A stretch of 48,105 nucleotides of DNA from a virus, in the IMG/VR virus record IMGVR_UViG_3300034073_004578, positions 1 to 48,105 of that record. The stretch is one strand, 5' to 3'. The translations under genes were made by a program, and so were the position numbers. Positions 18,662 to 46,820 of the stretch are shown here, piece after piece (position 1 is the stretch's first letter; each line of letters opens with the position of its first letter). The notes beneath the pieces are model-generated. The model was not told where the DNA came from and ran no database searches. It saw nothing but the letters and a program-made list of their open reading frames with translations.

Positions 18662-19342
18662 ATGGATGACAAAAAAGAAACTGTTGATGCTCTAATTGTT
18701 CCTAATGAAGGTCCTACAAAACCATCAAGATATTTTAGAGATTTAAAAGAAACAGACAAGCCATTAAAGCCTCTTCCTCCTGATAATATGAGTGATATTT
18801 CTTATCCTCAATTTATCGAACCAAGATGTTCCCTATGTATTTCTCCTTTTCGTGATTTATTAGAACACGTATATCTTGAATCAGGTAGAAAAAATCAAGC
18901 TGTAATTAGATTCTTCCACGAGTATTTTGATGCACAACTTAACTGGATGCAAATTAACACTCATATGGAACAACATTGTGATCTTAAGAAAATTTCAACA
19001 TCTGGACTTAAGAACTATGAACAGAGAGAAGAATTAATTGCTCCTTGGATTTTTAGAGAACATCATCTTGCTCTTACTGCATTGCTTGTTGAATTAGATG
19101 ATGTGAGAGGAATTGATTGTTCTAAAAACTCTGATATGAAATTAAGAAGAGCTGCTATGGTTGAAAAATTGATTACCAAAATATTAGCAGTCAAAGATTC
19201 AAGAGACAACCAAGGCATTTTTAATTTAAATATATTTGAAATTTTAGCTAACTTACACGAAAAAATGGTAAGTGAAGCAGATAAAAAAATTATAAGAGAT
19301 GAAATAGTAATACTTCGCAACAAAATTCAACAAGATAACTAA
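18662..19342 (+). CDS. Probable terminase small subunit
   Basis: A 226-residue protein directly upstream of the large terminase, overlapping it by one base (TAATGA), the classic terS position. Small subunits bind the packaging site and start DNA translocation. The sequence has a disordered N-terminus (1-50), then a putative zinc site formed by C56, C59, H101, H105 and C106 around a helical DNA-binding-like segment (NQAVIRFFHEYFDAQLNWMQINTHM). A long helical C-terminal half could oligomerise. I recognise no family signature, so the assignment is positional plus the DNA-binding look. No SD precedes its ATG. Confidence 0.6.
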   Translation: MDDKKETVDALIVPNEGPTKPSRYFRDLKETDKPLKPLPPDNMSDISYPQFIEPRCSLCISPFRDLLEHVYLESGRKNQAVIRFFHEYFDAQLNWMQINTHMEQHCDLKKISTSGLKNYEQREELIAPWIFREHHLALTALLVELDDVRGIDCSKNSDMKLRRAAMVEKLITKILAVKDSRDNQGIFNLNIFEILANLHEKMVSEADKKIIRDEIVILRNKIQQDN

Positions 19343-21453
19343 TGAGAAAACCAGTTCAAGTCAATAAAAGTTCAAATGAGTTAAAAAGTCAATTACTACA
19401 ACAAGCAAACTCAGTAAAAGAGCTTTTCAAGGATACAATTTACGCCAGAGATTTTGATGAAGAAATTGCTCCTGCCACTAGACAAGAAGTTGCTCCACCT
19501 GTAAAACCACCAAAAGATAGATTTAATCCTGATCAAATTGTAGATATTATCACTTTTATTGAACACCCTTTTTTCTGTAATCTTAAGCCTTATCCTTGGC
19601 AAAAACTTATCTTAAAATGTTTTTATATGGGACAAGAAGGAAATACCAATCTTGTAATTGACAATACAGAAAATGAAGTTGATTGCCAAGGTTGTGTTTG
19701 GAACTATATTCAAAAAAATGAAAATGATTTTTTGAAAGCTAGAAAAGAAGAGAGAAATTTCAAAACAATTTTCAATGTAGTTAATTCTCCTTGTTTGCAA
19801 TGTTCTAGACTTAACAATGATGTAAGAAAAGCTAGATATGAATATGCAAGACAAGAAGCTACTAACCCTGATGCTGAAAGACAAGTAGAAAATTTAGAAG
19901 CTAGACCTATAATTGATGGATATCAATCAGAAAATGATTTACTTTATTCTGAAGAGTTTGATCCTAAACTCAGAATGCAAGTAGAACAAAAATCAAAGCA
20001 AAGATTTAAGTTTGAAGAACTTGTTTTAGTACTAGGTAGACGTTCTGGAAAATCATTTCTTGTTTCTGCTATGGCTCTATATGAACTTTACAGATTAATT
20101 TCTATGGGTCATCCTCAAGCAAGATATGGCTTGATGGAATTCGATGAGATTGTTCTATTGAATGTTGCTCGTAATGAAGAACAGGCTAAAAAGGCAATCT
20201 TCTCTAAAATCAAGCAAACAGTTTTAGCCTCTCCATTTTTTGCTCCTTATATTGGCAAAGATACAGAACTTGAAATGAGGTTTTACACAGAACACGATAG
20301 AGAAGAAAATGTAAGAAGATCTGATCAAGGTATTAATTTATTTGCTGGATCTTTAGTATTAAGGTGTGGTTCTAGTAATGCGTCTGGCCTTGTTGGTTTA
20401 ACTTGTTGGTCAATAATTATGGACGAGGTAGCTGCTATGGCTGGTGATAATCCAGATAGTGGTGTGGATTATGCCTTATATGATGAATTAAAACCATCTC
20501 TTGCAACATTTGGTAAAGATGGAAAGATGATGATGCTTTCCAACCCTAAAGGACCTATTGGATTACTTTATGATTTGCATGAAAACAGACAAGAAGATCC
20601 TACCACTCTTGTTATGAGACTTCCCACTTGGCTTACAAATCCTAATATTGATAAAGATTGGCTTGATGGACAAAAGAAAAAAGACCCTCAAGAATTTCAA
20701 ATGCAATATGGAGCTGAATTTGGTGCTTCTTCTTCAGATCCTATCTTCTCTGCAGAAGACATTGAGAGAATGTTTACATCAATGTCTATGGTAAAAAGAA
20801 AAGAATTTGCTGATGGTCATTTTGAATATTTCTGCCATTTAGATCCAGCAAGAACTTCTGATTATTACGCTCTTGTTATAGCTCATACAGAAAATATGTA
20901 TGGTGAAATTGGCCCTGACTTTAAACCATTGAAAAGAGTGGTAATTGATCACATTCATTTTTGGAATCCAAAAACTAAAAATCAACCAGTTCAAGAAAAA
21001 GATATCGAAGATTATGTAATTGATCTTCATCAGAGATTTAAATTCAAACAAGTAAGTATTGATCAATGGAATTCACAATCCTCTTTAATTAAATTGCAAT
21101 CTATGAGGATTCCAATTGTTGAAAGACAATTCAACAAAGAATATAAAGAAAAAATTTACACAGAACTTGCTCAATTGATAAGAGATGACAGGATAGATAT
21201 TTATGATCTTTCAGGTGGATCTTACTATGACTTGAACAATACCTTGCAACCATTAAATGAAATACAAGAAGCTAAAATTCAGTTTTTATTCTTGCAAAAA
21301 AAATGGAAAGGCAAAAGATATTATATCGAAGCTTTGTCTGGCTACAAAGATGATATTTGTGATGCTGTTGCTGCTGTTTCATATGAATGTTTAACATCTA
21401 AAATTGCTGTGAGATTACCTAGAGCAAAAATGGTTAATTTGAATAGAAGGTAA
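19342..21453 (+). CDS. terL: Terminase large subunit (packaging ATPase-nuclease)
   Basis: The motor that pumps DNA into proheads and cuts concatemers. Walker A is LGRRSGKS (residues 231-238). Walker B with the catalytic acid is WSIIMDEVA (DE at 361-362), and the coupling motif follows in MMMLSNPKG. The C-terminal RNase H-like nuclease starts at HLDPARTSDYYALV (D501), with a second acid in VSIDQWNS and a third in YKDDICDAVA. At 703 aa it is long. Between the N-terminal helix and Walker A lies an insertion with two CxxC pairs (C115/C118 and C151/C154), likely a zinc ribbon not typical of terminases. Confidence 0.95.
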   Translation: MRKPVQVNKSSNELKSQLLQQANSVKELFKDTIYARDFDEEIAPATRQEVAPPVKPPKDRFNPDQIVDIITFIEHPFFCNLKPYPWQKLILKCFYMGQEGNTNLVIDNTENEVDCQGCVWNYIQKNENDFLKARKEERNFKTIFNVVNSPCLQCSRLNNDVRKARYEYARQEATNPDAERQVENLEARPIIDGYQSENDLLYSEEFDPKLRMQVEQKSKQRFKFEELVLVLGRRSGKSFLVSAMALYELYRLISMGHPQARYGLMEFDEIVLLNVARNEEQAKKAIFSKIKQTVLASPFFAPYIGKDTELEMRFYTEHDREENVRRSDQGINLFAGSLVLRCGSSNASGLVGLTCWSIIMDEVAAMAGDNPDSGVDYALYDELKPSLATFGKDGKMMMLSNPKGPIGLLYDLHENRQEDPTTLVMRLPTWLTNPNIDKDWLDGQKKKDPQEFQMQYGAEFGASSSDPIFSAEDIERMFTSMSMVKRKEFADGHFEYFCHLDPARTSDYYALVIAHTENMYGEIGPDFKPLKRVVIDHIHFWNPKTKNQPVQEKDIEDYVIDLHQRFKFKQVSIDQWNSQSSLIKLQSMRIPIVERQFNKEYKEKIYTELAQLIRDDRIDIYDLSGGSYYDLNNTLQPLNEIQEAKIQFLFLQKKWKGKRYYIEALSGYKDDICDAVAAVSYECLTSKIAVRLPRAKMVNLNRR

Positions 21454-23887: not shown

Positions 23888-24955
23888 ATGGCAGATAGAA
23901 TTTTCCCAAACAGATTTCAAGAAGATCCTCTTGATTCTGACTTGGTTTTCCAAGGAATTGATTGGGACAACTTTAACCAAAGATTAGCTGAAGCAAAAGA
24001 GCCTAAAGAGAATAAAGGCCTCAAAGCTCTTATTGATGCTATTGGCGATGAAGAAGTAGATAGAATGCAAGCAGAAGCAGGCTCTATGGATGATGATATG
24101 GAGCATGAAGCTGGTTCTAGATGGGCTAAAAAGGGTCTTCCAGAAGGTTTGAAAAAGTGGATGGAAGAGAATGGCAAAGGCAAGAAAGCAGAATCTGATG
24201 ACGATGATGACAAGTCAGAAAAATGCCCAGAGTGTGATTGCGATCCTTGCGAATGTGATGAAAAAGGTCCTATGAAGAGAAAAGGTCCTAAGAATAAGTC
24301 TGAAAAGAAGGCATTTCATTTCAATCACCCATCACAATTATCAGCTGAAGCTGTAGAAGCAGCAATTGCATCTGGAGATGAAGATCTCAAGAATGCTATC
24401 CTTGCAGCTCGTCATGAAAGAAGAGTAAGACTTGCAGGTAAGATTGAGCGCCAAGTAAAGGCTCAAGAAGAAGCAAATGTCAAGCTTGCTCAAAGAAAAG
24501 CTTACAGAGAAGCATTAGTTGAAAAAGTTGTTGAAGCAGCTAAAGAAGAGAAAGATGCTTCAATGGACAAAGAATGCAGCAAATGTGCAGGTAAAGGGTG
24601 CGAAGCTTGCAATGCATCTGATGATACAGAGATGAAAGAAGCTAAAGCATTCTCCAATGCTGCTAGAAAAGCATTTGCAGCTAAAGCATTGGCTGAAGGT
24701 TTCCCAATCGAATATATCAATGCAAGATTAGGTGAAACAACTCCAGCTCCTGCAGATAATTTAGTAGAAATCAAAAGCGTTTTAGCTTCTGAATTAGAAT
24801 CAAATGTCAAGATTGCAGCTGCATCTTCAATGATCAAAACCGCAACTCTTTCAGACGCAGATTATTCAAGACTCATTGATTATTGGAAAAATGAACTTGG
24901 ATATGGCGATCAAGAGTGGATTGACAAATTATTCACAAAAGAGTACGACAAGTAG
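23888..24955 (+). CDS. Hypothetical late protein with two cysteine clusters
   Basis: A 355-residue charged protein with a strong SD (GAGGAG). An acidic, low-complexity stretch (about 101-115) leads into CPECDCDPCEC, and a second cluster, CSKCAGKGCEAC, follows around residue 230. That second cluster has the spacing of a DnaJ-type zinc module but is only a half. Long alanine/glutamate-rich helices (150-220 and 250-275) suggest coiled coil. An IKTAT motif (about 321) matches the KTAS motif of other head proteins. It lies among genes of the head module and may be a scaffold, chaperone or inner-head protein. The family is not recognised. Confidence 0.65.
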   Translation: MADRIFPNRFQEDPLDSDLVFQGIDWDNFNQRLAEAKEPKENKGLKALIDAIGDEEVDRMQAEAGSMDDDMEHEAGSRWAKKGLPEGLKKWMEENGKGKKAESDDDDDKSEKCPECDCDPCECDEKGPMKRKGPKNKSEKKAFHFNHPSQLSAEAVEAAIASGDEDLKNAILAARHERRVRLAGKIERQVKAQEEANVKLAQRKAYREALVEKVVEAAKEEKDASMDKECSKCAGKGCEACNASDDTEMKEAKAFSNAARKAFAAKALAEGFPIEYINARLGETTPAPADNLVEIKSVLASELESNVKIAAASSMIKTATLSDADYSRLIDYWKNELGYGDQEWIDKLFTKEYDK

Positions 24956-26722: not shown

Positions 26723-28378
26723 ATGGAAAAAGGATACAAAATAAAATCAACCTACAAGACACACGATCCTGAAAAAATAGAAAAAATTTTAAGCCATCCT
26801 AAAATTGGTGGAGATGGCTTACTAGGAATGTTACAAGATACACTTTCAAATTTTGATGGTGATTCTATGCCACATTCTTCTCCATTTCACGTTTTAAGTA
26901 TGGATGATTTTGGTGATGATCCAATTATTTCTGCTTTCAAAAATATGGGTGGTCTTGACAATGTAGTTAAGATTATGGCACTACCTAAAGATGATTGTCA
27001 CTCAAAACTTCATGAAGCACATAAAACATTAAATAATATCAGATTAGCAGAAGAAAGAAATACATTAAGATATGCCTATATGGCTTTACAAAATTATTTT
27101 GATAAAAATAATTCTGCAGCAAAGTTTGAAAGAGTAGCTTATAAAACTGAAGAAAAATCATCAGGATATTGGCAAATCGAATCAATTAATGCATTAGACA
27201 AATTAAAACAATTTGCAAATACATCTGAAAAATTATCAAAAGTTAATTCAGCTAGAGAAATTATTCTTGCTGATAACAAAAAAACTACATTGAAAGTAGC
27301 CAATTTTATTCATAATTGGTATTCAGAAATTACCCCAAAAGAAAATAGAAGAGTGGCATATACAACTCTTTCTACTCAAATGAATGAACCTTTTTTACTA
27401 TGTCCTAAAGGTAAATTCCAAGGTTATAAAGCTCCAATTCCTATGGAAATTTCAAAATGTAGAGAAAACTGCATTGATTCCAGAGTAGATAAAGAAGGTC
27501 ATGTAACTTGTGCATATCAAGATTGGTTGAAAGTTGCATTCCAATCTCATGATGAAGTTATGGCAAGATTAGATGTACATAAACATCCTGATAATGAAGC
27601 TAATGCACTTGAATTAAAAGAAGGCGAAAGATCCAAAAAACTTACAGATGGTGAAGTTGGATATGAAGCTAGATTTGAAAATTCAGATCGTGGTGCTAAT
27701 AAAGTTCGTGGTAAACAAAATTACGAAGATTCTAGAGAAAAACAATTATCTGATTCTAAACAAGCACAATATGGTCATCAACAAGGTGATAAACCTGTTA
27801 TGAGACCTAAACAAGCACAAACAGATTCTTCTAAAACAATTGATTCACAACTTCCAAGAGAAGGTCAAAAAGGTATGTCTTATCTTGAAGATTTACTTAG
27901 AAGACTTAATAACAAAGAATCTGATACTGATGAAGTAAGAGAAAATCAATTAGATAAAAAAGAACTTTATACTCATCGTGGTGAAATGGAAGAATCTTAT
28001 TCTGAACAATTAAATGAAACTGATGAAGATCCTATCAATTACAGAGATGAATTAAATAAAGATAAAGATGAGCCAAAAGATTCTATTATTCATCAATTAG
28101 ATAAAAACATCACTGCTTCTAAAAAAGAATTAACTAAAGAAGAAATTTTAGATTCCTCAAGAAAAGAAAATGTTGTTGATGTTCCTAAAGATGAACAACT
28201 TGAAGATAGAAGAAAAAATGACAAACATAAAGTCAATATCGAAACCTTATTAGGCGAGGAAGATGAAGATAGTTTTGGACATCAATTTTCTGATGAAGAT
28301 TTGAAGAAATTTGCAGATGAACTTGGCTTAGATTATGTTTTAGAATCTAAAAGAGAAGAATACGACGATGTGGTATAA
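26723..28378 (+). CDS. Hypothetical late protein with repeated E-x-Q-L motifs and DDVV tail
   Basis: A 551-residue protein. The first 220 residues are globular and helical. A cysteine cluster (LLCPKGKFQG, KCRENC, VTCAYQ; about 231-270) could bind metal. The C-terminal half is very hydrophilic and repeats short motifs with the pattern E-x-Q-L or its variants: SREKQLSD, VRENQLDKK, YSEQLNE, IIHQLDKN and KDEQLEDRRK. The same pattern appears in the downstream 175-residue protein (LEEQLRG) and the prohead-protease fusion (REKQLDEVR, KEEQLKSK, LEEQLSNHR). It ends EEYDDVV, and the bases encoding that tail also start the next MWYK gene. Probably a structural or scaffold-associated protein; no known family. 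Confidence 0.65.
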   Translation: MEKGYKIKSTYKTHDPEKIEKILSHPKIGGDGLLGMLQDTLSNFDGDSMPHSSPFHVLSMDDFGDDPIISAFKNMGGLDNVVKIMALPKDDCHSKLHEAHKTLNNIRLAEERNTLRYAYMALQNYFDKNNSAAKFERVAYKTEEKSSGYWQIESINALDKLKQFANTSEKLSKVNSAREIILADNKKTTLKVANFIHNWYSEITPKENRRVAYTTLSTQMNEPFLLCPKGKFQGYKAPIPMEISKCRENCIDSRVDKEGHVTCAYQDWLKVAFQSHDEVMARLDVHKHPDNEANALELKEGERSKKLTDGEVGYEARFENSDRGANKVRGKQNYEDSREKQLSDSKQAQYGHQQGDKPVMRPKQAQTDSSKTIDSQLPREGQKGMSYLEDLLRRLNNKESDTDEVRENQLDKKELYTHRGEMEESYSEQLNETDEDPINYRDELNKDKDEPKDSIIHQLDKNITASKKELTKEEILDSSRKENVVDVPKDEQLEDRRKNDKHKVNIETLLGEEDEDSFGHQFSDEDLKKFADELGLDYVLESKREEYDDVV

Positions 28379-28895
28379 ACAAATTCTTGCTCAATTAGGT
28401 GGTGGAATTAATTGGTCACCAGAAGATTCTGAAGACAATTATTCTGAAATTGATGACATACAGGATGTTGATAATAAACCTGCAGGTTTATATGATGAAC
28501 TAACTGGCATTCTAGATAAAATGGGTAAAACTCTTGATGAATATTATGAAATGAATCAAGAGCAACAAAAAGAAATTTGGAATTTACTAGTAGATCGTCC
28601 TCACAGAATGAATATGGACAATAATGGTCAATTTATTGTTTCTCCTCAATCTGCATCTATTGAAGCACGTAGACATTCTCCTTATCATGAGAATCCAGAA
28701 AATACTACTTTGGAAGAACAACTTAGAGGATCTCAACAAGAAAACAATAACAGAGAGCCTCAAAGTATGGCATCAAGAGAAAAAGGTCAAGGCTTTCAAC
28801 ATTTTAAAAGTGGTGAAGGTTATTATCAAGCTTCTAGTAAAAAACAAGATCCTATCCTTTTTGGAAATAAACCCTCAAATCAAACTTGGTTTTAA
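28368..28895 (+). CDS. Hypothetical MWYK-type late protein
   Basis: A 175-residue protein starting MWYKQILAQL, overlapping the upstream gene by 11 bases. The junction holds the same 14-base sequence as the one at 5297-5310 on the other strand. The sequence is acidic at the N-terminus, helical in the middle (YDELTGILDKMGKTLDEYYEMN) and disordered, glutamine/asparagine-rich at the end. It includes one LEEQLRG motif like those of its neighbour. It lies immediately before the portal gene, so a head or connector role is possible. The function is not known. Confidence 0.65.
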   Translation: MWYKQILAQLGGGINWSPEDSEDNYSEIDDIQDVDNKPAGLYDELTGILDKMGKTLDEYYEMNQEQQKEIWNLLVDRPHRMNMDNNGQFIVSPQSASIEARRHSPYHENPENTTLEEQLRGSQQENNNREPQSMASREKGQGFQHFKSGEGYYQASSKKQDPILFGNKPSNQTWF

Positions 28896-28928: not shown

Positions 28929-31289
28929 ATGGCAAATAGAACATCTTTGGCTTCTGCAATTAGAACAGCAGCTACACAAGTATCAGGAGCAAGCACCCCT
29001 AATTCACCTGTAGATAAAAATTATGCAAGTAGTAGAATTGGTTTAGGTTTAGGACCTAGCGTAACAAGAACTGCTAGCATCAATACCGTTACTACAGCTC
29101 CAAATTTTTATTCGCCATTCCTCACTCCATCATCTTTTCAAATTCCAAATGCTCGTCGTGAGATTTATCTTTGGGCTAACTGGTGGAGAAATAATGAACC
29201 TAAAATTGCTGCAGCCATAAATTTCTATACCAACTATCCTTTCTCTGGTTGGAAATTAGAATGTTCTTCAGCTTATGTTAAAGATTATTTTGAAAAACTA
29301 GTTGAATCTTTAAACTTTCAAAAGTGGCTTCCAGAAATTTCCAAAACTTACCATTTACTTGGAGATTCATTCGTTTTACTTTCACTTGATTGTCCACATT
29401 GCCACGGTTCAAACTGGGATGATGATAAAAATCAAGAATGTGAGCATGATGGTGCAACTTGGAAATCGATTTCTATCTTAAACCCTGATTCTGTAATCAA
29501 AACTCCAGGAATGATTGATCAACCAGGTAGTTATGCATACAGACCATCTGCAGAAGAAATTAGAATTGTCAACGAAAGACATCCTAAAGAAATCTACGAC
29601 AAGATTCCTGACGATATCAAAAAGATGATTATGCAGGGTAATCCTATCAAATTAAACCCTATTTCTATACATCATTTTAAATATGGATCAAACCCTTGGG
29701 AAGATTATGGAATTTCTATGATCAGACCATTGTTTCCAATTCTTACATATAAAGATAAACTACGCCAAGCTCAATATATGATTGCTGAACGTCTTATTTT
29801 ACCAATCAAGGTAGTTAAGATTGGAAGTGATACTCGTCCAGCATCTCAAGAAGATATTGACAATGTTCAAGATGAATTAGCATCAATTGCTAATGATCCA
29901 AACCTTACTCTTGTTACACACCACAACTTTGATCTTGAATGGTATGGAGCAACAGGTAAGATTCATCCTCTTACTGGTGAATTTGAATTAATTGAACAAG
30001 AGATTTTAGATGGAGTTATGCTTAATAAAGCTCTTCTTAATGGTGAGGGTCCAACTTACGGTAATGCTCAAGTTGGTCTTCTTGCTATGGCTCAAAGATT
30101 AGAGACATTCAGAAGAGAAGTGGCACATTGGATTGAACAATGTGTTTTTATGCCAGTAGCAAAATGGAATGGTTTTGTTATTGAAGGCGAACGTGGACAA
30201 GATGAATTAGTTTATCCAAAAATCAAATTTGATGATTTACAATTAAGAGATGATACTGGAAAACTACAAATGCTTGTTACAGCAAATCAAAATGGTGTTA
30301 TCTCTAATGTTTCTTTAATTGAAGCTTTCGGATTAGATTCTGATCAAGAAATTGAAAGATTGAGATTTGAACAAGGTGCAAATTTTGTAAATGATCAAAA
30401 TTTTGGAACACCTAATATCTCATTAAGTTTTCAAAGTGGTGGTGTTACAGGTCAAGGATTTACTGGTGGAACTGGAGAGGTTTCCGCTGAAAGTGCTCCT
30501 CCTACTCCAGATTTAGGTGTTGGTGGTGCAAGCACTCCTGCTCCTGGTGGTGCTGCTCCTGCTCCAGCTGCGCCAGCCCCAATGCCTACAGCATCAACTA
30601 TGCTTAAAAATTACAAGTTAGCCAGTTCAATTATTAACAATGTTTGGACTGAAAGAATTGATAAAAAGAATTCTAATGTAAAAACAGCAAGTAGAAAAAT
30701 TAAGTCAGCTGCTCACGAAGGCTTTTTGATGTCTCAAACTCCTGTCACTGGAAGAGGTTCCCTTGGACCTTTAGCAGATGAATATGATGGTTTATTTGGT
30801 CCTATACAAACACCATTACTTGGAGGTAATAGTTCTCATCCATTGAATAATTTTGCGCTTAATGAAATATATGTTTTATCTGAAAATGAGAACTTTAAGA
30901 AATTTGCTGCAAAAAAATTAGACAATGCACAGCAACCAAAAATGTTTACAAATCTTGAGAAAAAGCTATATGGATTATTGATGTCATTGAATATGCCATA
31001 CCCACTTTATGCTCAATATTCTGCTGGACCTAGTATGGACTATCAATTAGATGGAGCAATTCCAAATCTTAAGATTGGAATTGAAGCTGATGGTGAAATT
31101 TGGCATAACAATCCAGACAAAATTGCAAAAGATAAAAGAAGAGATTCTGAGTTAGCTGCAAATGGATGGATTATTGTTAGATTCACAGACAAAGAAATCA
31201 ATGACCATCCACAAGATTGTTTAAATGTTTTAATTAATGTTATCAAAAAAAGAACAGGTATGGGAGAAGGTGAATCTGAATATCTTTAA
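28929..31289 (+). CDS. Portal protein fused to a C-terminal DUF559/Vsr-like nuclease domain
   Basis: A 786-residue protein. Residues about 60-500 read as a phage portal, the dodecameric ring through which DNA enters the head. Landmarks are NARREIYLWANWWRNNEPKI, HLLGDSFVLL, a long wing segment, IHHFKYGSNPWEDYGISMIRP, and the clip/crown helices ending in FEQGANFV. A small CPHC-H...C-x-H insertion (155-173) may bind zinc. A proline/alanine linker (about 520-560) and a KTAS motif (about 580) follow. Residues 675-775 match DUF559/Vsr-type PD-(D/E)XK nucleases: LEKKLYGLL with E677, YQLDGAIP with D708, IGIEADGEIWH with E719, KDKRRDSEL, NGWIIVRFTDKEI. The nuclease call is from motif pattern. Such a fusion is unusual for a portal. 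Confidence 0.88.
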   Translation: MANRTSLASAIRTAATQVSGASTPNSPVDKNYASSRIGLGLGPSVTRTASINTVTTAPNFYSPFLTPSSFQIPNARREIYLWANWWRNNEPKIAAAINFYTNYPFSGWKLECSSAYVKDYFEKLVESLNFQKWLPEISKTYHLLGDSFVLLSLDCPHCHGSNWDDDKNQECEHDGATWKSISILNPDSVIKTPGMIDQPGSYAYRPSAEEIRIVNERHPKEIYDKIPDDIKKMIMQGNPIKLNPISIHHFKYGSNPWEDYGISMIRPLFPILTYKDKLRQAQYMIAERLILPIKVVKIGSDTRPASQEDIDNVQDELASIANDPNLTLVTHHNFDLEWYGATGKIHPLTGEFELIEQEILDGVMLNKALLNGEGPTYGNAQVGLLAMAQRLETFRREVAHWIEQCVFMPVAKWNGFVIEGERGQDELVYPKIKFDDLQLRDDTGKLQMLVTANQNGVISNVSLIEAFGLDSDQEIERLRFEQGANFVNDQNFGTPNISLSFQSGGVTGQGFTGGTGEVSAESAPPTPDLGVGGASTPAPGGAAPAPAAPAPMPTASTMLKNYKLASSIINNVWTERIDKKNSNVKTASRKIKSAAHEGFLMSQTPVTGRGSLGPLADEYDGLFGPIQTPLLGGNSSHPLNNFALNEIYVLSENENFKKFAAKKLDNAQQPKMFTNLEKKLYGLLMSLNMPYPLYAQYSAGPSMDYQLDGAIPNLKIGIEADGEIWHNNPDKIAKDKRRDSELAANGWIIVRFTDKEINDHPQDCLNVLINVIKKRTGMGEGESEYL

Positions 31290-31415: not shown

Positions 31416-34400
31416 ATGTACAAGGTTGCCAAAGGAGGAGCTATTACAATAAATAGTTTTCTCAACGAAAATGACCGAAATATAGCAAGAGAATATATTA
31501 TCAAAACTGCTTCCACTAATATGAGAGAAGCTGCTAAAATTGGTCTTCAATCTCTCTATGCTGATCCTAAAGAAGTTCTGGAAAAATATAAAGATTTTGA
31601 CATTGTTAAAGAAATGCAAGCTCGTAAAGGTGCTAAACTTTTATGGGTAAGAGCCAGAGCTATAGATGCAGATGTCGTAAATGCTAATGGTGACTTGTTT
31701 TCAAAAGAAGAATTACTTAAAGAAACAGAAATCAAGGGAGAAAAAATCCCAGTATATAAAACTTTCGAAGGCGTTCCAATCTACACAAACCATAAAAACG
31801 ATGATATTGAACAAGCTAAAGGTATGGTTGTTTATGCAGAGTGGGATGAAAAAGAAAATTGTGTTTACTGTACTTTCTTTGTAGATGAAGAAGCTTACCC
31901 AGATATTGCAAGAAATATTCGCACTGGTGTAATTCATGATGTTTCTATGGGAGCTAGTGTTGAATGGGGTGTTTGTTCTGTTTGCGGTAATAAAGCATAT
32001 ACAGAAAGAGATTATTGTGAACACCTTAAGAAATACAAAGGAAAAATTTATCCAGAAACAGGCAAAAGAGCTTATGAAAAAAACTACGGAGTTAAGTTTA
32101 TTGAACTTAGCTGTGTAGGTGATGGTGCTTTTGAATCTTGCGAAATTCAAGAAATTTATGATGTAGATGATGTTCTAGATGCAGCCACCAATTTAGAAAA
32201 GAAAGCTAATGAAATTTCTTCTAATATTGTTTTAGCATTACAAGATCTACCTAATAACACACAAGATAGATTAGAATATGAAAATTGCTTAAGGGTTGCA
32301 AATTCCACAGCTAAAACAGCAATAAGATTAGCACAACAAGCTGGAACACTTGTTGGAGGTCCTTTATTAGCAGGACAAGGAGCTAATCAAAATTCTACTG
32401 TTCAAGCAGTGTTATCAGCCCTTGGAATTGATCCTGCTTCTGGATTAAATATTCTTGATTTGATTAATTTATCACTTAATTTCTTAGAAGTTGCTGTGAT
32501 GAATATGTTTGCAAGAAAAGACAATGTTGATTTAGGTCACGTTGGAAAAGTTACAAAATCTATGGCTGAATTACAATCAACTATGCAAGATATGATTGAT
32601 GATGGCATAGATGTTGGATCAGGACAAAGACCTCAACAAATTAATCAACCTCAAGCACAACAAGGTCAGCCAGGTCAAGCACAACAAGCTTCTCCTATGG
32701 CAGCTAATGTGGGACTGGCTAATTATTCTCCAACTGATTCTGTTGGAAAAATTATGGATTTATCATTAAATCAAAACCAAGGTCCACAAATAGGAGGAGG
32801 CGTAGCTTTAGCCTCTAGCTATAATAATTTAGTATGGGCATCAAAAGATGGCAAAAGAGAAGTTTTTGCAAGTACCCAAACTAATTCATCTTCTAATAAA
32901 CTTTTAAACTTAACTAAGAGCATTTTAAATTTAAAAGAAAATTTAAATGATCAAAAGCAAGTACAAAAAAGTATTGATAATGTCATTAGAATTGCTAATG
33001 AAAGAAGTAAAAACATAAAAACAAATACGCCTTTCGTGGCGGGGAGCAGAAATCAAATGGATCACTTTGCAAAGATTGCATCAGAGCAAAGAAAAAAACT
33101 TGCTGCTGCAGTTACAATCGATTTCAAAGTCGAAGACAATGCTGGCAATAGAGTTGTTCTTTCTACTGATGGTTCAATTACAGGCTACACAAATGGCAAA
33201 AGAACTGCTTGGGAACCTATCCTTAATGAAAATCAATTAAACTTGATGGAAAATGGACAAGGTACAAGAGTTGCTGCAGAATTACTCAATGATTATTCTA
33301 AATTTGTCAGAACTGCATTGCTTGATGTTAAAGAAAGACTTGATGACAGAGAAAAGCAACTTGATGAAGTTAGAAAAGGTGAATCTTACGACAACTTAGT
33401 TGATGGCGTTAAGAGTAAGAACACTGGAGTTAATGAGAACACTAAAGAAGAACAACTCAAATCTAAGCAAACTGGCGAAGGTCAAGATGCAGTCAAAGAG
33501 ATTCTTCTTGGTGATGCTGGTCTTTATGGCAGAAGAGTCAAGGATGATGCTGTAAGAGAAACATTAACTCAACTTGTTGAAGAAGTTACTCACGGTGTAC
33601 CTACTGGAATTCTTGAAGAGCAATTATCAAATCATAGAGCAGAAGGATCAGCAAGTGCTCATGAAATTATGGCTGCTACAATTAATGCTTTAGGAAGAGC
33701 TGTAGTTTCTTCTTATGAAACTCCTAAAACTATTCTTAGAGTGGCACAAACATTGTCTGATGAACCAATGCTTCCAGAAATGATTGGTACAGCAGCTGCT
33801 GGTTCTGCTATGGAATCTGATAAATCAGAAAGAGCAGATTTCTTCAATCAAGAAATGGAACCTGATAATTCTGTTGCAGCTATTCTTAAGCAATTAGGCG
33901 CTGCTGTTTCTGCAGATATTACAGCTAAAGATCTTTCTGATGCTCTTTCAGTAGCAGTTGAAGAAGGCGAAATTACAAAAGAAGGCATCACAAGAATTGC
34001 TGAATTACTTATGAAAGATGCTGCTGTTCCTGAAGAAGGATTAGATGTTGATGTCACTCCTTCAAAAAATGAAGAACTTAAATCAGCTCTTATGTCTGCA
34101 GTAGATGCTGATGCTGATCTTATCTCTAAAGATGATCTTAAATCTGCAATTTCCGCTATGGCAATGTCCTCGAAAGAAACTGGAACAACTCCTGATGAAG
34201 TAGTAGATTCCGTAGATGCTATGCCAGAAAAGCAATTGATGGCTGCTATTGATAAAGCAAAGACTGCAACTGCTACTGATGGCAGATTAAGAGCAAGAGC
34301 AAGAAGAGAATTCTGGGGTGTTAAAACTGCATCAACAAAGAACATTTCTGATAATGTTGTTGGTTGGTTAGCAGATTATTCAACAAATTTTGGCATTAGC

Positions 34401-35567
34401 ACAAGAAAAATTGCAAAGGCTGCTAAGAGACTTTGTGAAGAATTTGAAGTTGCAGAAAAATTAGTTGCCAAAGCAGTAGTTGCTTCTGAAAGAACTGCTG
34501 GTATGACAATTACTCAAAGCAAATCAGAATGCATTAGATTTATCTGCAGAGCTGAAGATTTAGATGGTGTTCAACCATCAGATAGCAATTTTGATGAAAC
34601 ATTCAAGCAAAAGGCTATTGAAGTATTGCAAGGACACGGTTTCCAAGTAGATCCTGGAACATTCTCTTTTACTGATTTATTTGTATCTGAAAATGGCGAT
34701 GTTACAGCTACTGTTTCAACTGCATCTTCTAAAACATTCAAAACAGACTCAGCAGAATCTGGTGAAGTTGGAGAAGTAATTGAAGGCGGTGAAGATGTTC
34801 CTGTAATTATGACAGAAACTGCAAGAATCGCAAGAAAAGAAAGAAGAGACAGTGTCTTAGCTAAATATGCTCAAGCAATGCCAGGAATGGGTGCTCCAGC
34901 TCCTGCTGGTCCTGCTGCTGGTCCTGTTGATCCAGGCTTAGGTGCTACTGCTCCTGCTGGTGGAGATTTAGGAATTTCTTCATTAACTGGTGGAGCAGAT
35001 ATGAATGAATCTGCTGATATGGATGCAATGACAGAACCAGGTGAAAAGAAACCTTGGGGATCAGTATGTCCTGTTTGTGGTTCTGATGATGTAAATATTT
35101 CAGAGTCTAATGCAGATTGTCAAAGCTGTGGCACTACATACAAAATTATGCAATCAATTGAACTTATTTCTATGGGAGATAAGGGCAAGTCTGATATGGG
35201 TGAAGAACCAATGGGACTTGGACCAGATACTGGTTTAGGAGCAGCTACTGCACCTACTGAAACACCTGCACCTGCTCCAGCTGCTCCTGGTATGGGACCT
35301 GTTGCTTCTGATATTAAAACAATGGTAAGACTTTCTGCTACTGTTGATTCAGATGTTTACTTGAAAACTGCTTTACCTGCATTTGACAGAAAAGCAGAAT
35401 CTATGTTACCAATTGGAATGGTTTGCCCATCTTGCGGTGATAGAGAAGCACATAAAGTAAAAAATAATACATTCTGCTACAAGTGTGGAAATTATTCTAG
35501 AACATCTGTACAAGCTTCTAAGAATGATCCATCAAAGCTTGATGTTACAATCACTTGGATTGACTAA
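31416..35567 (+). CDS. Prohead protease fused to a long head-assembly protein with two zinc ribbons
   Basis: A 1383-residue protein. The N-terminal domain (about 60-250) matches prohead/maturation proteases: TNHKNDDIEQAKGMVV with the likely catalytic His (H126), then IHDVSMGASVEWG with the likely Ser (S177). A zinc-like knuckle (C187, C190, C201, H203) and a conserved YEKNYGVKFIELSCVGDGA block follow. The rest is long, alanine-, glutamate- and serine-rich, and resembles scaffold or core protein. It has repeated E-x-Q-L motifs, KTAS-type sites and two proline/alanine linkers. Two C-terminal zinc ribbons are present (C1218/C1221/C1235/C1238 and C1337/C1340/C1354/C1357). I infer that it processes itself and neighbours during head maturation. 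Confidence 0.8.
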   Translation: MYKVAKGGAITINSFLNENDRNIAREYIIKTASTNMREAAKIGLQSLYADPKEVLEKYKDFDIVKEMQARKGAKLLWVRARAIDADVVNANGDLFSKEELLKETEIKGEKIPVYKTFEGVPIYTNHKNDDIEQAKGMVVYAEWDEKENCVYCTFFVDEEAYPDIARNIRTGVIHDVSMGASVEWGVCSVCGNKAYTERDYCEHLKKYKGKIYPETGKRAYEKNYGVKFIELSCVGDGAFESCEIQEIYDVDDVLDAATNLEKKANEISSNIVLALQDLPNNTQDRLEYENCLRVANSTAKTAIRLAQQAGTLVGGPLLAGQGANQNSTVQAVLSALGIDPASGLNILDLINLSLNFLEVAVMNMFARKDNVDLGHVGKVTKSMAELQSTMQDMIDDGIDVGSGQRPQQINQPQAQQGQPGQAQQASPMAANVGLANYSPTDSVGKIMDLSLNQNQGPQIGGGVALASSYNNLVWASKDGKREVFASTQTNSSSNKLLNLTKSILNLKENLNDQKQVQKSIDNVIRIANERSKNIKTNTPFVAGSRNQMDHFAKIASEQRKKLAAAVTIDFKVEDNAGNRVVLSTDGSITGYTNGKRTAWEPILNENQLNLMENGQGTRVAAELLNDYSKFVRTALLDVKERLDDREKQLDEVRKGESYDNLVDGVKSKNTGVNENTKEEQLKSKQTGEGQDAVKEILLGDAGLYGRRVKDDAVRETLTQLVEEVTHGVPTGILEEQLSNHRAEGSASAHEIMAATINALGRAVVSSYETPKTILRVAQTLSDEPMLPEMIGTAAAGSAMESDKSERADFFNQEMEPDNSVAAILKQLGAAVSADITAKDLSDALSVAVEEGEITKEGITRIAELLMKDAAVPEEGLDVDVTPSKNEELKSALMSAVDADADLISKDDLKSAISAMAMSSKETGTTPDEVVDSVDAMPEKQLMAAIDKAKTATATDGRLRARARREFWGVKTASTKNISDNVVGWLADYSTNFGISTRKIAKAAKRLCEEFEVAEKLVAKAVVASERTAGMTITQSKSECIRFICRAEDLDGVQPSDSNFDETFKQKAIEVLQGHGFQVDPGTFSFTDLFVSENGDVTATVSTASSKTFKTDSAESGEVGEVIEGGEDVPVIMTETARIARKERRDSVLAKYAQAMPGMGAPAPAGPAAGPVDPGLGATAPAGGDLGISSLTGGADMNESADMDAMTEPGEKKPWGSVCPVCGSDDVNISESNADCQSCGTTYKIMQSIELISMGDKGKSDMGEEPMGLGPDTGLGAATAPTETPAPAPAAPGMGPVASDIKTMVRLSATVDSDVYLKTALPAFDRKAESMLPIGMVCPSCGDREAHKVKNNTFCYKCGNYSRTSVQASKNDPSKLDVTITWID

Positions 35568-35723: not shown

Positions 35724-37415
35724 ATGAACAAAAATTCGAATAGAGCCAATCAGGGAAGATTTGCAGCAATGAGATTAGCTGAAATCAATGCAACTGATAA
35801 GGAAGATCTTTTGAATTGTGCTTCAGATATGACGAAAACTGCATCATTAAACAATGATGAAGCAATTGTTGTAGCAAAAGCAATTAGAGCAAAATATCTA
35901 CCAAATATTGCAAAACAAGCTGGTCTTGATTTCTCCAATTTGGACCTTGATCATGGCAAAGAGACTGTTGACTTCGCAAAAGATGAATCTGACGATGATG
36001 ATGAAGATTTAGAGTTCCATCACTTTGAGAGTGATGAGGATTCAGATGATGAAAATGAAGAAATGTCTGATGATATGTCAGACGATATGGAAGACGAAGA
36101 CGAAGTAGAAGATAGTGATGATGTCGCCACTTTTGAGATTGAAGTTCCCGCTGATATGGTTGACCAAGCACAAAAAGCTGTGCAAGAGGCGCTAGATAAT
36201 CTTCTTGGCGGAGATGTTGATTCAGAAGATGATGAAGATGAAATTACTCATTTTAATGATGATGATGAAGATTCAATGTCTGATGATGATGAAGATGATG
36301 AAACACAACTTATGAAAACAAGCAACGAGGTTAGATCAATGAATAAACAATCATTGGCTGAGCGCAAAGCACAGAGAGAAGCCCTTATGAGAAGAGCAGA
36401 AAGAGAAGAAATTCTCAAGAAGATTGCATCTGAAGAAGAGACTTATCCTGCGTCAGCCTCTTTTAAATATAACGAAGATTTAGTCAATATGGAAGGTGAA
36501 GTAGATTATCCTTCTATGACTATGCAAAGTAGTGAAGGTAATTCACTCAAGGAACAAAATCCAACTTGGGCTGAACAAAAAGTTCCAACTGTTAATGGTG
36601 ATCATTTGGAATTTCCTTCAGTCACAAAGCCTATGAAATTTGAAGGTTCCGGTGATGGTTCTTTAGAGTATACAGTTGATTGGGATAAATTAGAGAATCC
36701 TTCTGAAGGATTTGAAGATGTTAAACATCCTGAAGTTCCAACTCAAATGCCAGCTATGCCACATAAATCAACAAAATCTGTTAGTGCTTCCAAACATGAT
36801 GTTGAATGCACTGCTTGTGGTACAAGAATGTCTATGACTGAAGCTGAGATGGAAGATGACAACACTCGCTGTGCAAACAAAGAGTGCCCAACAAATAGAA
36901 CTGCTTCTGATAAGTCTGATGAGGAAGAATCAGAAGATATGGAAAGAAAATCTGAGCAAATTCAAGAGCCTGTTCACGAAGAAGGTCTTAAATTGACTGG
37001 TAAAGGTCCTTCAGGCGCTGAATTTCAACTTCCTGGCAAAGCTACAACTGTTACTGAACTTAAAGCTTCTGTTGATACAGCAAGAATCAAGTGTTCTTAT
37101 AGCTGTGCAACAAAATTAGCTTTAGCTGGAATTATCACTTCTGACGAAGTTGATTCATACGCTGAGCAAATGCTCAACGATGGTTTGAAAGCTGATTCTA
37201 TGATCAGACAAACCAAACTTTTACTCAAGTCTGCACAATCATCAACTGAAAGAGTTGCTGCTGCAGCTGCTGAAAGAATGAGTACTAGAACCGCTTCAAC
37301 ATTAGGCGTATCTACATCTCCTGCAATGTCTGGTGGATTTTCCAACAACAGTGCAGCTCTTGACATCCAAAGTGCTCTTAAAGGCACTTGGACAATGCCA
37401 AAAATCGAGGATTAA
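35724..37415 (+). CDS. Acidic scaffold-like head protein
   Basis: A 563-residue protein with an extremely acidic stretch (residues about 85-205, runs of D and E), a helical basic segment (LAERKAQREALMRRAEREEILKKI) and a mid-region with short strands. A cysteine cluster (CTACGTRM ... CANKEC, about 362-390) follows, and an alanine-rich helical C-terminus. A KTASLNND motif occurs near residue 38, with further RTAS sites later. The acidic core, the helices and the position just before the decoration and major capsid genes fit an internal scaffold. A minor structural protein is the alternative. The function is not demonstrated by any specific motif. Confidence 0.6.
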   Translation: MNKNSNRANQGRFAAMRLAEINATDKEDLLNCASDMTKTASLNNDEAIVVAKAIRAKYLPNIAKQAGLDFSNLDLDHGKETVDFAKDESDDDDEDLEFHHFESDEDSDDENEEMSDDMSDDMEDEDEVEDSDDVATFEIEVPADMVDQAQKAVQEALDNLLGGDVDSEDDEDEITHFNDDDEDSMSDDDEDDETQLMKTSNEVRSMNKQSLAERKAQREALMRRAEREEILKKIASEEETYPASASFKYNEDLVNMEGEVDYPSMTMQSSEGNSLKEQNPTWAEQKVPTVNGDHLEFPSVTKPMKFEGSGDGSLEYTVDWDKLENPSEGFEDVKHPEVPTQMPAMPHKSTKSVSASKHDVECTACGTRMSMTEAEMEDDNTRCANKECPTNRTASDKSDEEESEDMERKSEQIQEPVHEEGLKLTGKGPSGAEFQLPGKATTVTELKASVDTARIKCSYSCATKLALAGIITSDEVDSYAEQMLNDGLKADSMIRQTKLLLKSAQSSTERVAAAAAERMSTRTASTLGVSTSPAMSGGFSNNSAALDIQSALKGTWTMPKIED

Positions 37416-38134: not shown

Positions 38135-38989
38135 ATGTCAATGATTAAGAGAAACACAAATGAGCAGAGAGAGTCCATTATCGCAATGGCTCTTGAAACT
38201 CCAGAGGGACGCACAGCCCTTGCACAAGCAATGGTTGAGCCAATCAAGACTTCCCTCATGTATCAAGCAATTGGCCGCAAACTTTTGATGGTTGATGAGC
38301 TTCCACAAGGCGCACTTGCTCGTTATGAGAGAGACGTTGCTGTAAAGTCATACGTCATTCCTAAGAGAGGTGCTGTTCCTACTGCTGAGGTTGAGGCTGA
38401 AGAGCTTCTCGTTCCTACAGTTGAGTTAGCTGCACACCCACAAATCAGACTCAATGAGATTCGCCAAAGAAGATTCTACATTGTCGATAGAGCTCAAGTT
38501 CGTGCTAAGGACTCCCTCCAAAGACAAGAAGATACTGAAGTCTTCAAGGTCATCAATGCTGGTGTTCCAACTGACCAAGCTATTTCAGTTTCTGGTACTC
38601 TCCAACCTGAGAATGTCAACCTTGCGTTGACCCTCATTGAAGAGCATGAGTTAATTGGTGCTAAGGTTGTTCTTCACCCACAAAGATACAAAGATATCAG
38701 AAACTGGGGTAAGGAATTCTTCGATGAGGCAACTCAAAGAGATATTCTTATGACTGGTCTCTATGGTCATATCTACTCTGCAGACATCCACGTCAGCACA
38801 ATGGTTCCTAAGAACAGTGTTTACGTTCTCGCACCTGCCCAATTCGTTGGTGCAATGCCAGTTCGCCAAGACATCACCGTTCTTCCAGCTGACGATCCAA
38901 AGAGATTGAGATTAGGCTGGGTTGTGTATGAAGAATTAGGATTCGCTTTGATAAATGATTACGCTGTAAGTCGCATCACAGTTTCGTAA
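38135..38989 (+). CDS. Major capsid protein (HK97 fold)
   Basis: A 284-residue protein with the strongest SD in the window (AAAGGAGA). An N-terminal helical arm (EQRESIIAMALETPEGRTALAQAMVEPIKTSL) is followed by the E-loop region (PQGALARYERDVAVKSYVIPKRGAVP). The P-domain helix (DSLQRQEDTEVFKVINAG) and A-domain segments typical of HK97-like capsids come next: ELIGAKVVLHPQRYKDIRNWG, FFDEATQRDILMTGLYGHIYSADIHVSTMVPKNSVYVLAPAQFVGAMPVRQDITV. It assembles the icosahedral shell around the DNA. Codon choice favours C-ending codons (high expression). It is followed by a strong terminator. No cleavage site for the prohead protease is obvious at the short N-terminus. Confidence 0.9.
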   Translation: MSMIKRNTNEQRESIIAMALETPEGRTALAQAMVEPIKTSLMYQAIGRKLLMVDELPQGALARYERDVAVKSYVIPKRGAVPTAEVEAEELLVPTVELAAHPQIRLNEIRQRRFYIVDRAQVRAKDSLQRQEDTEVFKVINAGVPTDQAISVSGTLQPENVNLALTLIEEHELIGAKVVLHPQRYKDIRNWGKEFFDEATQRDILMTGLYGHIYSADIHVSTMVPKNSVYVLAPAQFVGAMPVRQDITVLPADDPKRLRLGWVVYEELGFALINDYAVSRITVS

Positions 38990-39003: not shown

Positions 39004-39041
39004 AATAATAAGGGAAGAATTATCTTCCCTTATTATTTTGT
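39004..39041 (+). terminator. Intrinsic terminator after the capsid gene
   Basis: A perfect 15-bp stem (39004-39018 with 39023-39037), loop ATTA, then TTTGTTT. It ends the head operon. Confidence 0.92.
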
Positions 39042-39049
39042 TTATGATG

Positions 39050-39055
39050 TATAAT
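39050..39055 (+). promoter_or_regulatory. -10 box for the homing endonuclease gene
   Basis: A perfect TATAAT preceded by TG (TGTATAAT) lies 18 bases before the ATG at 39074. A GGAGA SD (39063-39067) is in between, so this message has a short leader. No clear -35 is present because the terminator occupies that place. Confidence 0.45.
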
Positions 39056-39073
39056 CTAATATGGAGAACCAAA

Positions 39074-40249
39074 ATGGTTGATAAACGAACTTACTCTTTG
39101 AATGATTTTTATTTTTCCAACTTGAATGATAAATCAGCTTATTATTTGGGTTTTATTGCAGCGGATGGTCATATAACCAATTTTGAAAATAAAATGAATT
39201 ATTTGATAATTAACATTATCAAATCAGATGAAGAAATTTTAAATAGATTTAAAAAAGATATTTCTTATAATGGAAAAATTTATTTTACTCCCAAAAAAAA
39301 TGGGCAAGATCAGTCAGCTATCAGAATATGTTCAAATCAAATTAAAAAAGATATAAATAAATATTTTAATACTAATAATAAAACTTATAATTTAAATTGG
39401 TGTAAAGATATTTCAAATGAACTTATGAATAATTTTATTAGAGGATATTTTGATGGTGATGGATGTGTTCATTTCAACCCTTCAAAAGGACAATATTCAG
39501 CATCAATCGTAGGGACTGAAAGTTTTTTATCAGGATTAAAAAAATTCTATAATGAAAACAATAATAATTGTGAAGGCAGTATTAAAAACAATGGTACATA
39601 CACTAACCTTTATTTTAGTGGCAAGTATGTTGCAAAAAAATTTTTAGATTGGCTTTACAAAGATTCGACAGAAGAAACAAGACTTTCAAGAAAATATCAA
39701 AAATATTTAGAATTAGCTGATTATGTTGGTGAAGATCCAAAGCCTCACAATAATCAAAAAATAGATCAGGAAGTTGCCAATACTATTAGAACTTTGCATC
39801 AAACTTTATCAGCTAAGGATATATCTTTAAAACTAGATACACCCCTTTCAACAATTTATGATGTCTTATCAAATCGTACTTGGTTTGACGAAAATTATGT
39901 ATATCAAAAATCCAATCAAGAAACAATTTATCTAACATACAATGATAAAACATTGTCGCTTTCAGATTGGAGCAAAGAAGTTGATATTCCGAAATCTACT
40001 TTAGATAGAAGATACAGACAAGGATTATCTATTGAACAAATTTTCTCTACAGATAAAAGACTTAATTTAGGAAAACAAAAATCTGAAAAAGATTTAGAAA
40101 GTTATAAAATTGCCAAAATTGTTCGTGATAATTATAAGAATGGAATTGTAGGAAAAAGCAATTATGAAAAGCACAATATTCCAAAATCAAGATATTTAGA
40201 CTTGATTGGAAATAGAACCTGCAAAGAAGAAATTGTTTGGTGGAAATAA
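39074..40249 (+). CDS. LAGLIDADG-family homing endonuclease
   Basis: A 391-residue site-specific nuclease that promotes its own spread. Two LAGLIDADG helices are clear: SAYYLGFIAADGHI and NNFIRGYFDGDGCVHF, each ending in the catalytic Asp. The C-terminal half carries short helix-turn-helix-like modules used for DNA recognition (VANTIRTLHQTLSAKDISLKLDTPLSTIYDVL; LSLSDWSKEVDIPKSTLDRRYRQGLSIEQIF). I chose the ATG at 39074 because GGAGA lies six bases before it. It is a free-standing gene inserted after the capsid terminator, more AT-rich than its neighbours. No intron or intein boundary is visible. Confidence 0.88.
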   Translation: MVDKRTYSLNDFYFSNLNDKSAYYLGFIAADGHITNFENKMNYLIINIIKSDEEILNRFKKDISYNGKIYFTPKKNGQDQSAIRICSNQIKKDINKYFNTNNKTYNLNWCKDISNELMNNFIRGYFDGDGCVHFNPSKGQYSASIVGTESFLSGLKKFYNENNNNCEGSIKNNGTYTNLYFSGKYVAKKFLDWLYKDSTEETRLSRKYQKYLELADYVGEDPKPHNNQKIDQEVANTIRTLHQTLSAKDISLKLDTPLSTIYDVLSNRTWFDENYVYQKSNQETIYLTYNDKTLSLSDWSKEVDIPKSTLDRRYRQGLSIEQIFSTDKRLNLGKQKSEKDLESYKIAKIVRDNYKNGIVGKSNYEKHNIPKSRYLDLIGNRTCKEEIVWWK

Positions 40250-40366: not shown

Positions 40367-41734
40367 ATGGCAAAATTAGTTGTGTTTGATCTTGATGGAG
40401 TTTTAGTAGAAGCAAAGGAAATTCATTTTAACTCATTGAATTCAGCTCTTCAAGAAATAGATCTTTCTTTAGTAATTAGTTGGGAAGAACACCTAAGATA
40501 TTATGATGGGTTGAAAACTTATGACAAATTAAATCTTCTTTCCAAAAAACATAAATTGTCAGAAGATACTAAAAAAAATATATTTGATAAAAAACAAGAG
40601 CACACACTTATTGAATTATCTAAGTTGCAAAAAAATTACAAATTTATCGATATTTTTGAAACTTTAAAACTTAATGGATTTCTTATTGCTTGTTGCTCTA
40701 ATTCTGTAAAAAACACAGTAAATTTAGCCTTATCTAACCTTGGTATTTTAGAATATTTTGATTTAGTGCTTTCTAATGAGGATGTTAAATATGCTAAGCC
40801 TCATCCAGAAATATATTGGAAGGCTATGTCATATTTTGGTGTATTGCCAGATTCTACATTGATAGTAGAAGATTCACCTACTGGACTTACTTCTGCATAT
40901 AGATCAGGAGCTAAAGTATTGAGGGTAAACAACACTGATGACTTTGACTATGAAAAAATATATAATGCATTTAGTTGTAATAATAAACACATAGAAAGAT
41001 GGGTTGATAAAAAGATGAATGTATTAATTCCTATGGCTGGTAATGGTAGTAGATTTCTTCAAGCTGGTTATACTTTTCCAAAACCATTGATTGAAGTACA
41101 TAGTAAACCAATGATTCAAGTAGTAGTTGAAAATTTGAATGTTGAAGCTAATTATATTTTTGTAGTTCAGAAAGCTCACAGAGAAAAATACAATTTAGAT
41201 TCTATGTTAAATCTTGTTTCTAATAATTGCAAGATTGTTGAAGTTGATGGAGTTACTGAAGGTGCTGCTTGTACTGTTCTGTTGGCTAAGGAATTTATTG
41301 ATAATGATGAACCTTTAGTTATTGCAAATTCTGATCAGTTTATTGAATGGAATAGTTTAGATTTTTTCTATAAAATGAATGAGCAAAATTTAGATGCTGG
41401 TATTGTTTCTTTTAGAGCTACTCATCCTAAATGGTCTTATGCAAAAATTGATGAAGATGGTTATGTTGTTGAAGTAGCAGAAAAGAATCCTATTTCTGAT
41501 ATTGCCACTGTTGGTGTTTATTATTGGAAGCACGGTTCTGATTTTGTCAAGTATGCTGAAAATATGATTCAAAAGAACATTAGAGTGAATAATGAATTTT
41601 ATGTTTGTCCAGTGTTTAATGAAGCAATTTTAGATAATAAGAAAATTAAAACATTTGACATTTCAGGTATGTGGGGTCTTGGAACTCCTGAAGATTTAGA
41701 ATATTTCTTGAAGAATTATTCTTTGAACGTATAA
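40367..41734 (+). CDS. HAD phosphatase-sugar nucleotidyltransferase fusion
   Basis: A 455-residue two-domain protein. Residues 1-210 are a HAD hydrolase of the phosphoglucomutase-phosphatase type, with FDLDGVLVEAKEIHF (nucleophile Asp), CCSNSVKNT (motif II), KPHPEIY (Lys) and IVEDSPTGLTSAYRSG (acidic motif IV). From about 217 (MNVLIPMAGNGSRFLQAGY, then KPLIEVHSKPMIQ) a sugar-phosphate nucleotidyltransferase begins, with a GxGxRF signature, a metal-binding NSDQF and a VGVYYW strand. The pairing would let one protein remove a phosphate from a sugar intermediate and activate a hexose-1-phosphate as NDP-sugar. The exact sugar and nucleotide are not readable. It opens the plus-strand part of the sugar cassette. 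Confidence 0.85.
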   Translation: MAKLVVFDLDGVLVEAKEIHFNSLNSALQEIDLSLVISWEEHLRYYDGLKTYDKLNLLSKKHKLSEDTKKNIFDKKQEHTLIELSKLQKNYKFIDIFETLKLNGFLIACCSNSVKNTVNLALSNLGILEYFDLVLSNEDVKYAKPHPEIYWKAMSYFGVLPDSTLIVEDSPTGLTSAYRSGAKVLRVNNTDDFDYEKIYNAFSCNNKHIERWVDKKMNVLIPMAGNGSRFLQAGYTFPKPLIEVHSKPMIQVVVENLNVEANYIFVVQKAHREKYNLDSMLNLVSNNCKIVEVDGVTEGAACTVLLAKEFIDNDEPLVIANSDQFIEWNSLDFFYKMNEQNLDAGIVSFRATHPKWSYAKIDEDGYVVEVAEKNPISDIATVGVYYWKHGSDFVKYAENMIQKNIRVNNEFYVCPVFNEAILDNKKIKTFDISGMWGLGTPEDLEYFLKNYSLNV

Positions 41735-45140: not shown

Positions 45141-45646
45141 AATAATGGTGTGTTTTTATCCCTATTAGATAAAATTGGATTTTGGCACATCCAATTTATA
45201 TTCAATTTTGGTTCAGCCCAGTTCACAGATTGTTGCTCATCAATATCTGGATAATTACCTTCATAACTCCATTTATAATGAAAAACAGCAAAATCACTTA
45301 AAACCAAATGACCATTTAAGAATCCTGGAGGAACAAGAATACTTAATTTATCTTGTGAATCTGCATCTACAGTTATATCCATATGATCTAAATATTCATC
45401 ACTATCTGATATGTAATTTGCCACTACTAATTGTATTTTGCCATAAATACAAGTAATGAGTTTCCAAGATTTATCTGTATGTAAACCTCTTAAGACACCT
45501 TTTTTAGATGTAGCAACTTTATCATGATTGAAATTCAGATCTTTAAATTGTTTTTGTTCCCATATGGTATACAATTGACCACGATGATCTTGAAAACTAT
45601 CATAATTTAAAACTATAATATTTTTCAAAACATCTTTTCTAGCCAT
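45137..45646 (-). CDS. RfbC-like NDP-sugar epimerase (cupin)
   Basis: A 169-residue cupin of the dTDP-4-dehydrorhamnose 3,5-epimerase type. DHRGQLYTIWEQKQF is the N-terminal strand. KKGVLRGLHTDKSWKLITCIYGKIQLVV is the RGLHxQ...LV.V..G.I core, with the catalytic His. ILVPPGFLNGHLVLSDFAVFHYKWS matches the PPGFAHGF...YK.S segment. It would act on C3/C5 of a 4-keto-6-deoxy sugar. The sequence diverges from RfbC at several points (for instance NGHL for AHGF), so the exact reaction could differ. It has a GAGG SD and follows the ColD-like gene with an eight-base overlap. Confidence 0.82.
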   Translation of the reverse strand: MARKDVLKNIIVLNYDSFQDHRGQLYTIWEQKQFKDLNFNHDKVATSKKGVLRGLHTDKSWKLITCIYGKIQLVVANYISDSDEYLDHMDITVDADSQDKLSILVPPGFLNGHLVLSDFAVFHYKWSYEGNYPDIDEQQSVNWAEPKLNINWMCQNPILSNRDKNTPLL

Positions 45647-46814: not shown

Positions 46815-46820
46815 ATTATA
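46815..46820 (-). promoter_or_regulatory. -10 box with leaderless geometry for the ColD-like gene
   Basis: Minus-strand TATAAT (46820 down to 46815), then six bases (AAAGAT), then ATG at 46808. The TAA stop of the radical SAM gene lies inside the box. A TTCAAA at 15-base spacing is a possible -35. Confidence 0.55.

Follow-up and report, generated by a model that had tools for sequence, protein, structure and literature searches.

Why should a phage portal protein, the ring subunit through which DNA enters the virus head, end in what appears to be a DNA-cutting domain? The question is raised by a single gene in the 48,105-nucleotide viral sequence analyzed here (IMG/VR record IMGVR_UViG_3300034073_004578, positions 1 to 48,105; "the window"). 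A first-pass annotation, made from the sequence alone, read the ORF at 28929-31289 as a portal followed by a Pro/Ala linker and a C-terminal DUF559/Vsr-like PD-(D/E)XK nuclease domain. It proposed that the nuclease might cut at the portal, help headful cutting, or attack other DNA, or alternatively be a catalytically dead structural module.

A portal protein with a predicted C-terminal nuclease domain

The observation itself is confirmed, and the coordinates and motifs given in the first-pass annotation are correct. The gene and its parts are as follows.

28929..31289 (+), whole portal-nuclease fusion gene, 786 aa
28929..29099 (+), N-terminal 57 residues, disordered in the model (pLDDT below 50 over most of the segment), with two [KR]-hydrophobic-A-[ST..] motifs (residues 12 and 47)
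29100..30392 (+), portal ring domain, residues ~58-488
30393..30941 (+), linker, residues 489-671, comprising a Pro/Ala/Gly-rich disordered part, then short helices and the conserved YRLAS, KSAAHE, and PVTGRG segments
30942..31256 (+), predicted Vsr/DUF559 PD-(D/E)XK nuclease domain, residues 672-776
30957..30959 (+), E677, invariant Glu of the first helix
31050..31052 (+), D708, predicted catalytic Asp
31083..31091 (+), E719-A720-D721, predicted catalytic Glu/Asp (EADGEIWH motif)
31104..31106 (+), H726, invariant His
31140..31145 (+), R738-D739, invariant

The portal assignment rests on profile matches to phrog_16240 (E 3.4e-32) and Pfam Portal_Mu (33.3 bits against a cutoff of 23.9), and in a Foldseek search with the full-length AlphaFold model, the top 50 listed PDB matches were all portal or portal-neck structures. 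Its nearest named relative is Bacillus phage G portal protein gp14, with 28% identity over residues 1-486, but gp14 is 648 aa long and has a Pro/Gly-rich tail without a nuclease. In the model, residues 483-627 are largely disordered, including the Pro/Ala-rich stretch at 485-560, with short helices at 558-578 and 594-601. For the C-terminal domain, Pfam DUF559 scored 27.8 bits (cutoff, 20.6) at residues 703-771, and up to 49 bits in relatives, and REase_MTES_1575 matched residues 705-771 just under its cutoff. A profile built from 22 homologues hit PDB 3hrl (NGO0050) at E 8.6e-12 and 3r3p at 1.5e-6. The AlphaFold model of residues 670-786 (pLDDT 85) has the element order alpha-beta-beta-beta-alpha-beta-alpha, which includes the alpha-beta-beta-beta-alpha-beta fold of the family, and it matches the catalytic domain of I-Bth0305I (E 7.5e-5, TM 0.79), NGO0050, and Vsr. 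The lack of such a structural match had been set beforehand as a condition that would refute the reading, as had free variation of D708 and E719 among homologues; neither was found.

Distribution, origin, and selection

To determine whether the fusion is general, we scanned viral contigs, which gave 68 loci, and alignment-based scans extended the set to distant jumbo-phage contigs, including records of 296-476 kb. Every complete portal ORF of this clade of uncultured giant phages contains the nuclease domain, giving 65 distinct fused ORF sequences, some of them 5'-truncated. The only exception is contig L061 (the same contig as loci L126, L200, and L277), in which a single in-frame TGA at 7681-7683 separates portal and nuclease, while its near twin L276 is intact; there is no clear ribosome-binding site before the next ATG, and the TGA may represent a sequencing error, a nonsense change, or a true split. 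All finds of the nuclease-alignment scan that were classified individually lie in portal ORFs or in that split copy. In five of seven large records DUF559 occurs once, in the portal, whereas the other two, which look like near-identical records, have a second, free-standing copy. The portals of phage G, L145, L146, Tunturi_5, and Vibrio D69 lack the domain, as does, judged by reading its ORF, the portal of the uncultured 485-kb phage LR745208. The phage-G-like portal of contig L145 (4689-7736; 1016 aa) instead has a different long C-terminal extension with a Cys/His cluster and no Pfam match above cutoff.

A tree of the portal ring places all fused portals in one clade with support of 0.999, indicating one gain and no clear loss. 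No named phage in the phage collection searched showed the fusion, and no relative was found in bacterial or archaeal genomes. Literature searches, confined to an open-licence library, found no report of a portal-DUF559 or portal-nuclease fusion. The component families are thus known, and the architecture is, as far as could be searched, undescribed.

E677, Q696, D708, P712, E719, D721, H726, D735, R738, D739, G746, W747, R751, and F752 are invariant in 22 divergent domains, of which the others are 30-86% identical to that of the window, so that the conserved E...D...ExD...H...RD set is complete. Pairwise NG86 estimates, which are rough because synonymous sites are partly saturated, gave omega values of 0.01-0.06 for the nuclease, similar to 0.02-0.04 for the ring, against 0.07-0.29 for the linker, suggesting relaxed selection on the linker. 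Portal and nuclease distances correlate at r = 0.95, with 0 of 2000 permutations as high. In a relative, L158 (277-5883), an insertion with intein features (it starts with Cys and ends His-Asn followed by Cys, with sub-threshold Intein_splicing and LAGLIDADG hits) interrupts the domain directly after the Glu equivalent to E719. Inteins typically occupy the most conserved functional sites and persist where only exact removal is tolerated, again suggesting that this site matters. The portal gene is more generally an intein hot spot in distant relatives (L158 and also L148, L149, L150, L209, L270, L278, L281, and L282), with insertions at four or more sites of the ring and, in L158, in the predicted nuclease active site. 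Taken together, these data suggest that the domain is very probably an active, required nuclease, although catalytic activity is inferred here from sequence, selection, and predicted fold.

Relationship to the terminase and possible roles

The interpretation offered in the first-pass annotation is only partly supported: it was right about the identity of the domain and the retention of D708 and E719, whose invariance makes a dead module unlikely, but a role in headful cutting is not supported. Two lines of evidence bear on this point, the first of which comes from the surrounding genes.

19342..21453 (+), terminase large subunit with ATPase and nuclease motifs intact
28368..28895, 175-aa gene just upstream of the portal, with weak HEPN/AHH similarity
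31416..35567 (+), downstream gene, head-maturation-protease domain fused to a long scaffold-like region, 1383 aa (phrog_18299, E 5e-21)
35724..37415 (+), acidic scaffold-like head-cluster protein, 563 aa, rich in the same [KR]xA motif
38135..38989 (+), major head protein (phrog_2522, E 3.6e-68)

The portal gene therefore lies between the terminase and the head-protease and major head protein genes, as is expected of a tailed-phage portal. The terminase large subunit keeps its Walker motifs and its RNase H-type HxDP, D, and DD..D nuclease motifs, as do its relatives, including the distant ones, and the portal nuclease is therefore an addition, not a substitute. Furthermore, in solved portals the segment after the long wing helix forms the crown inside the head, and the predicted order of elements here agrees with that, so the domain most likely sits on the capsid-inner side, away from the terminase, which argues against a headful-cut role. 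That the domain attacks other DNA remains possible, but its strict, never-swapped coinheritance with the portal looks more like a core function than like an accessory weapon.

Our preferred explanation, which we hold tentatively, is that the gene makes a portal subunit with a working Vsr/DUF559-type metal-dependent DNase on its C terminus, such that each ring (12 subunits in known phages) would carry about twelve copies. In this view, the domain would serve a core genome-handling step at the portal vertex, on the capsid-inner side, processing DNA during packaging, head completion, or the start of ejection, for example by trimming or cutting entangled, branched, or wrongly ended DNA, and the prohead protease encoded next door may later cut the linker. 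What the analysis itself establishes is the fusion, the fold (by prediction), the invariance of the active-site residues, strong purifying selection, a single origin, and an intact terminase nuclease motif set; metal-dependent DNA cleavage, the inner location, the oligomeric state, and a packaging or head-completion role are inferences. There are precedents in T4, in which endonuclease VII (gp49) is bound to portal gp20 during packaging (PMC9958956) and the head-completion nuclease gp4 is required for packaging (cited in PMC7824862). Both are separate proteins: endonuclease VII belongs to an unrelated family (Endonuclease_7) and acts in trans, and gp4, although a REase-fold DNase, is TnsA-like and not fused to the portal. 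RuvC was not found in 11 records and endonuclease VII was not found in 7 large records, with positive controls responding (T4 for Endonuclease_7), but these records may be incomplete. Several considerations weigh against the explanation: incoming concatemer branches are not met inside the head in the T4 model, a nuclease facing the packaged genome would need some unknown restraint, and phage G relatives manage without the domain. RusA-type resolvases are present above cutoff in 2 of 7 large records and weakly in 2 more, so the domain is not needed as the only resolvase. A Pox_A22 search was uninformative because no control responded.

The main rival, which we consider possible but less likely, is a virion-packaged nuclease that is carried into the head by the portal, possibly freed by the neighboring protease at [KR]xA|S sites in the linker, and enters the host with the DNA to attack host, plasmid, or competitor DNA. 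The expected inner location of the C terminus favors this reading, as does the motif [KR]-hydrophobic-A-[STAGQ], which is strongly enriched in the linker and N terminus (69 against 6.3 and 41 against 6.0 expected over 28 homologues) but not in the nuclease (1 against 3.1), and which is also enriched in the protease-scaffold protein, the acidic head-cluster protein, and the product of 23888-24955. This candidate prohead-protease recognition motif, whose possible cleavage sites include RTA|S (residue 49), KLA|S (565), and KTA|S (587), is only a statistical lead, because charged or Ala-rich helices could also give it. A homologue of the protease gene lies downstream of the portal in nearly all relatives and in phage G. 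MuF polymorphic toxins, over half of them with nuclease domains, are encoded next to portals (PMC5576092) and provide a precedent for a nuclease at the C terminus of a portal-associated head protein; however, the profile search gave no MuF hit in the portal-nuclease protein (P0001), and effector domains of the MuF kind vary between relatives, whereas here the same domain is kept and coinherited with the ring. Nor is there an obligatory neighboring immunity gene, since the 175-aa upstream gene is present in most but not all of the clade. Self-protection through a modified 2-aminoadenine genome also received no support: the shortened adenylosuccinate synthetase at 14057-15052 (331 aa) has GDEGKGK with the Asp that distinguishes PurA from PurZ, and is therefore PurA-like by that residue.

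The remaining readings are less likely still. A portal-mounted junction-resolving nuclease, which would replace T4-type endonuclease VII by releasing branched replication intermediates that jam the motor, is suggested by the ability of portal-bound gp49 to free stalled Y-DNA (PMC9958956) and by the absence of endonuclease VII and RuvC hits in seven large records, but it is unlikely given the RusA-like proteins in some relatives, the expectation that branches jam outside the head while the C terminus should be inside, and the fact that Vsr/DUF559 domains are not known resolvases; the domain itself is DUF559, not Endonuclease_7. Counting this version together with the preferred explanation, a genome-handling role at the portal is somewhat more likely than not. 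A DNA-binding structural module that has lost cleavage and anchors the genome near the portal is similarly unlikely, because the catalytic residues, and not just the fold, are invariant and an intein occupies the predicted active site, although Vsr-like folds without known cleavage do exist (mitoribosomal proteins appear among the Foldseek hits). Least likely is a remnant of a homing endonuclease stuck to the portal gene without benefit to the phage. The nearest fold is indeed that of I-Bth0305I, an EDxHD homing endonuclease, the portal gene is an intein hot spot, and a LAGLIDADG gene lies 8 kb downstream, but homing genes come and go, whereas this domain is fixed in the whole clade, monophyletic, under ring-like purifying selection, and congruent with the ring, and no DNA-recognition region was seen beside it. 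I-Bth0305I and E. coli Vsr, which share the fold and conserved acidic motif, are free-standing mobile-intron or repair enzymes, whereas the domain described here is part of a portal protein and vertically inherited.

Portals are among the most conserved parts of tailed phages and are usually treated as DNA conduits with no enzyme of their own. A clade in which the ring carries an invariant predicted nuclease makes the question of which nuclease acts at the portal, when, and from which side testable in one polypeptide, and it raises the further question of how packaged DNA is protected from a nuclease placed next to it. It is possible, though on present evidence less likely than not, that the ring carries about twelve active nuclease heads inside the capsid, possibly released by the prohead protease, which would make nuclease action an integral, essential step of genome packaging or ejection in a whole clade of giant phages, by a packaging or head-completion mechanism not previously described. 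If the domain is released into the head, this would be a new route for delivering a nuclease with the genome.

Other features of the window and its relatives

In addition to the portal inteins, the terminase large subunit carries an insertion of ~350 aa near the Walker A motif in four relatives (loci L289, L290, L291, L295, L301, and L302), probably also an intein. In the window itself, a LAGLIDADG/HNH endonuclease ORF (39038-40249) directly follows the major head protein gene. Farther downstream lies a sugar/nucleotide-type cluster (40367-41734, 41742-43052, 45639-46808, and 46816-48075) encoding a HAD hydrolase fused to a nucleotidyltransferase, two aminotransferases, and a radical SAM protein.
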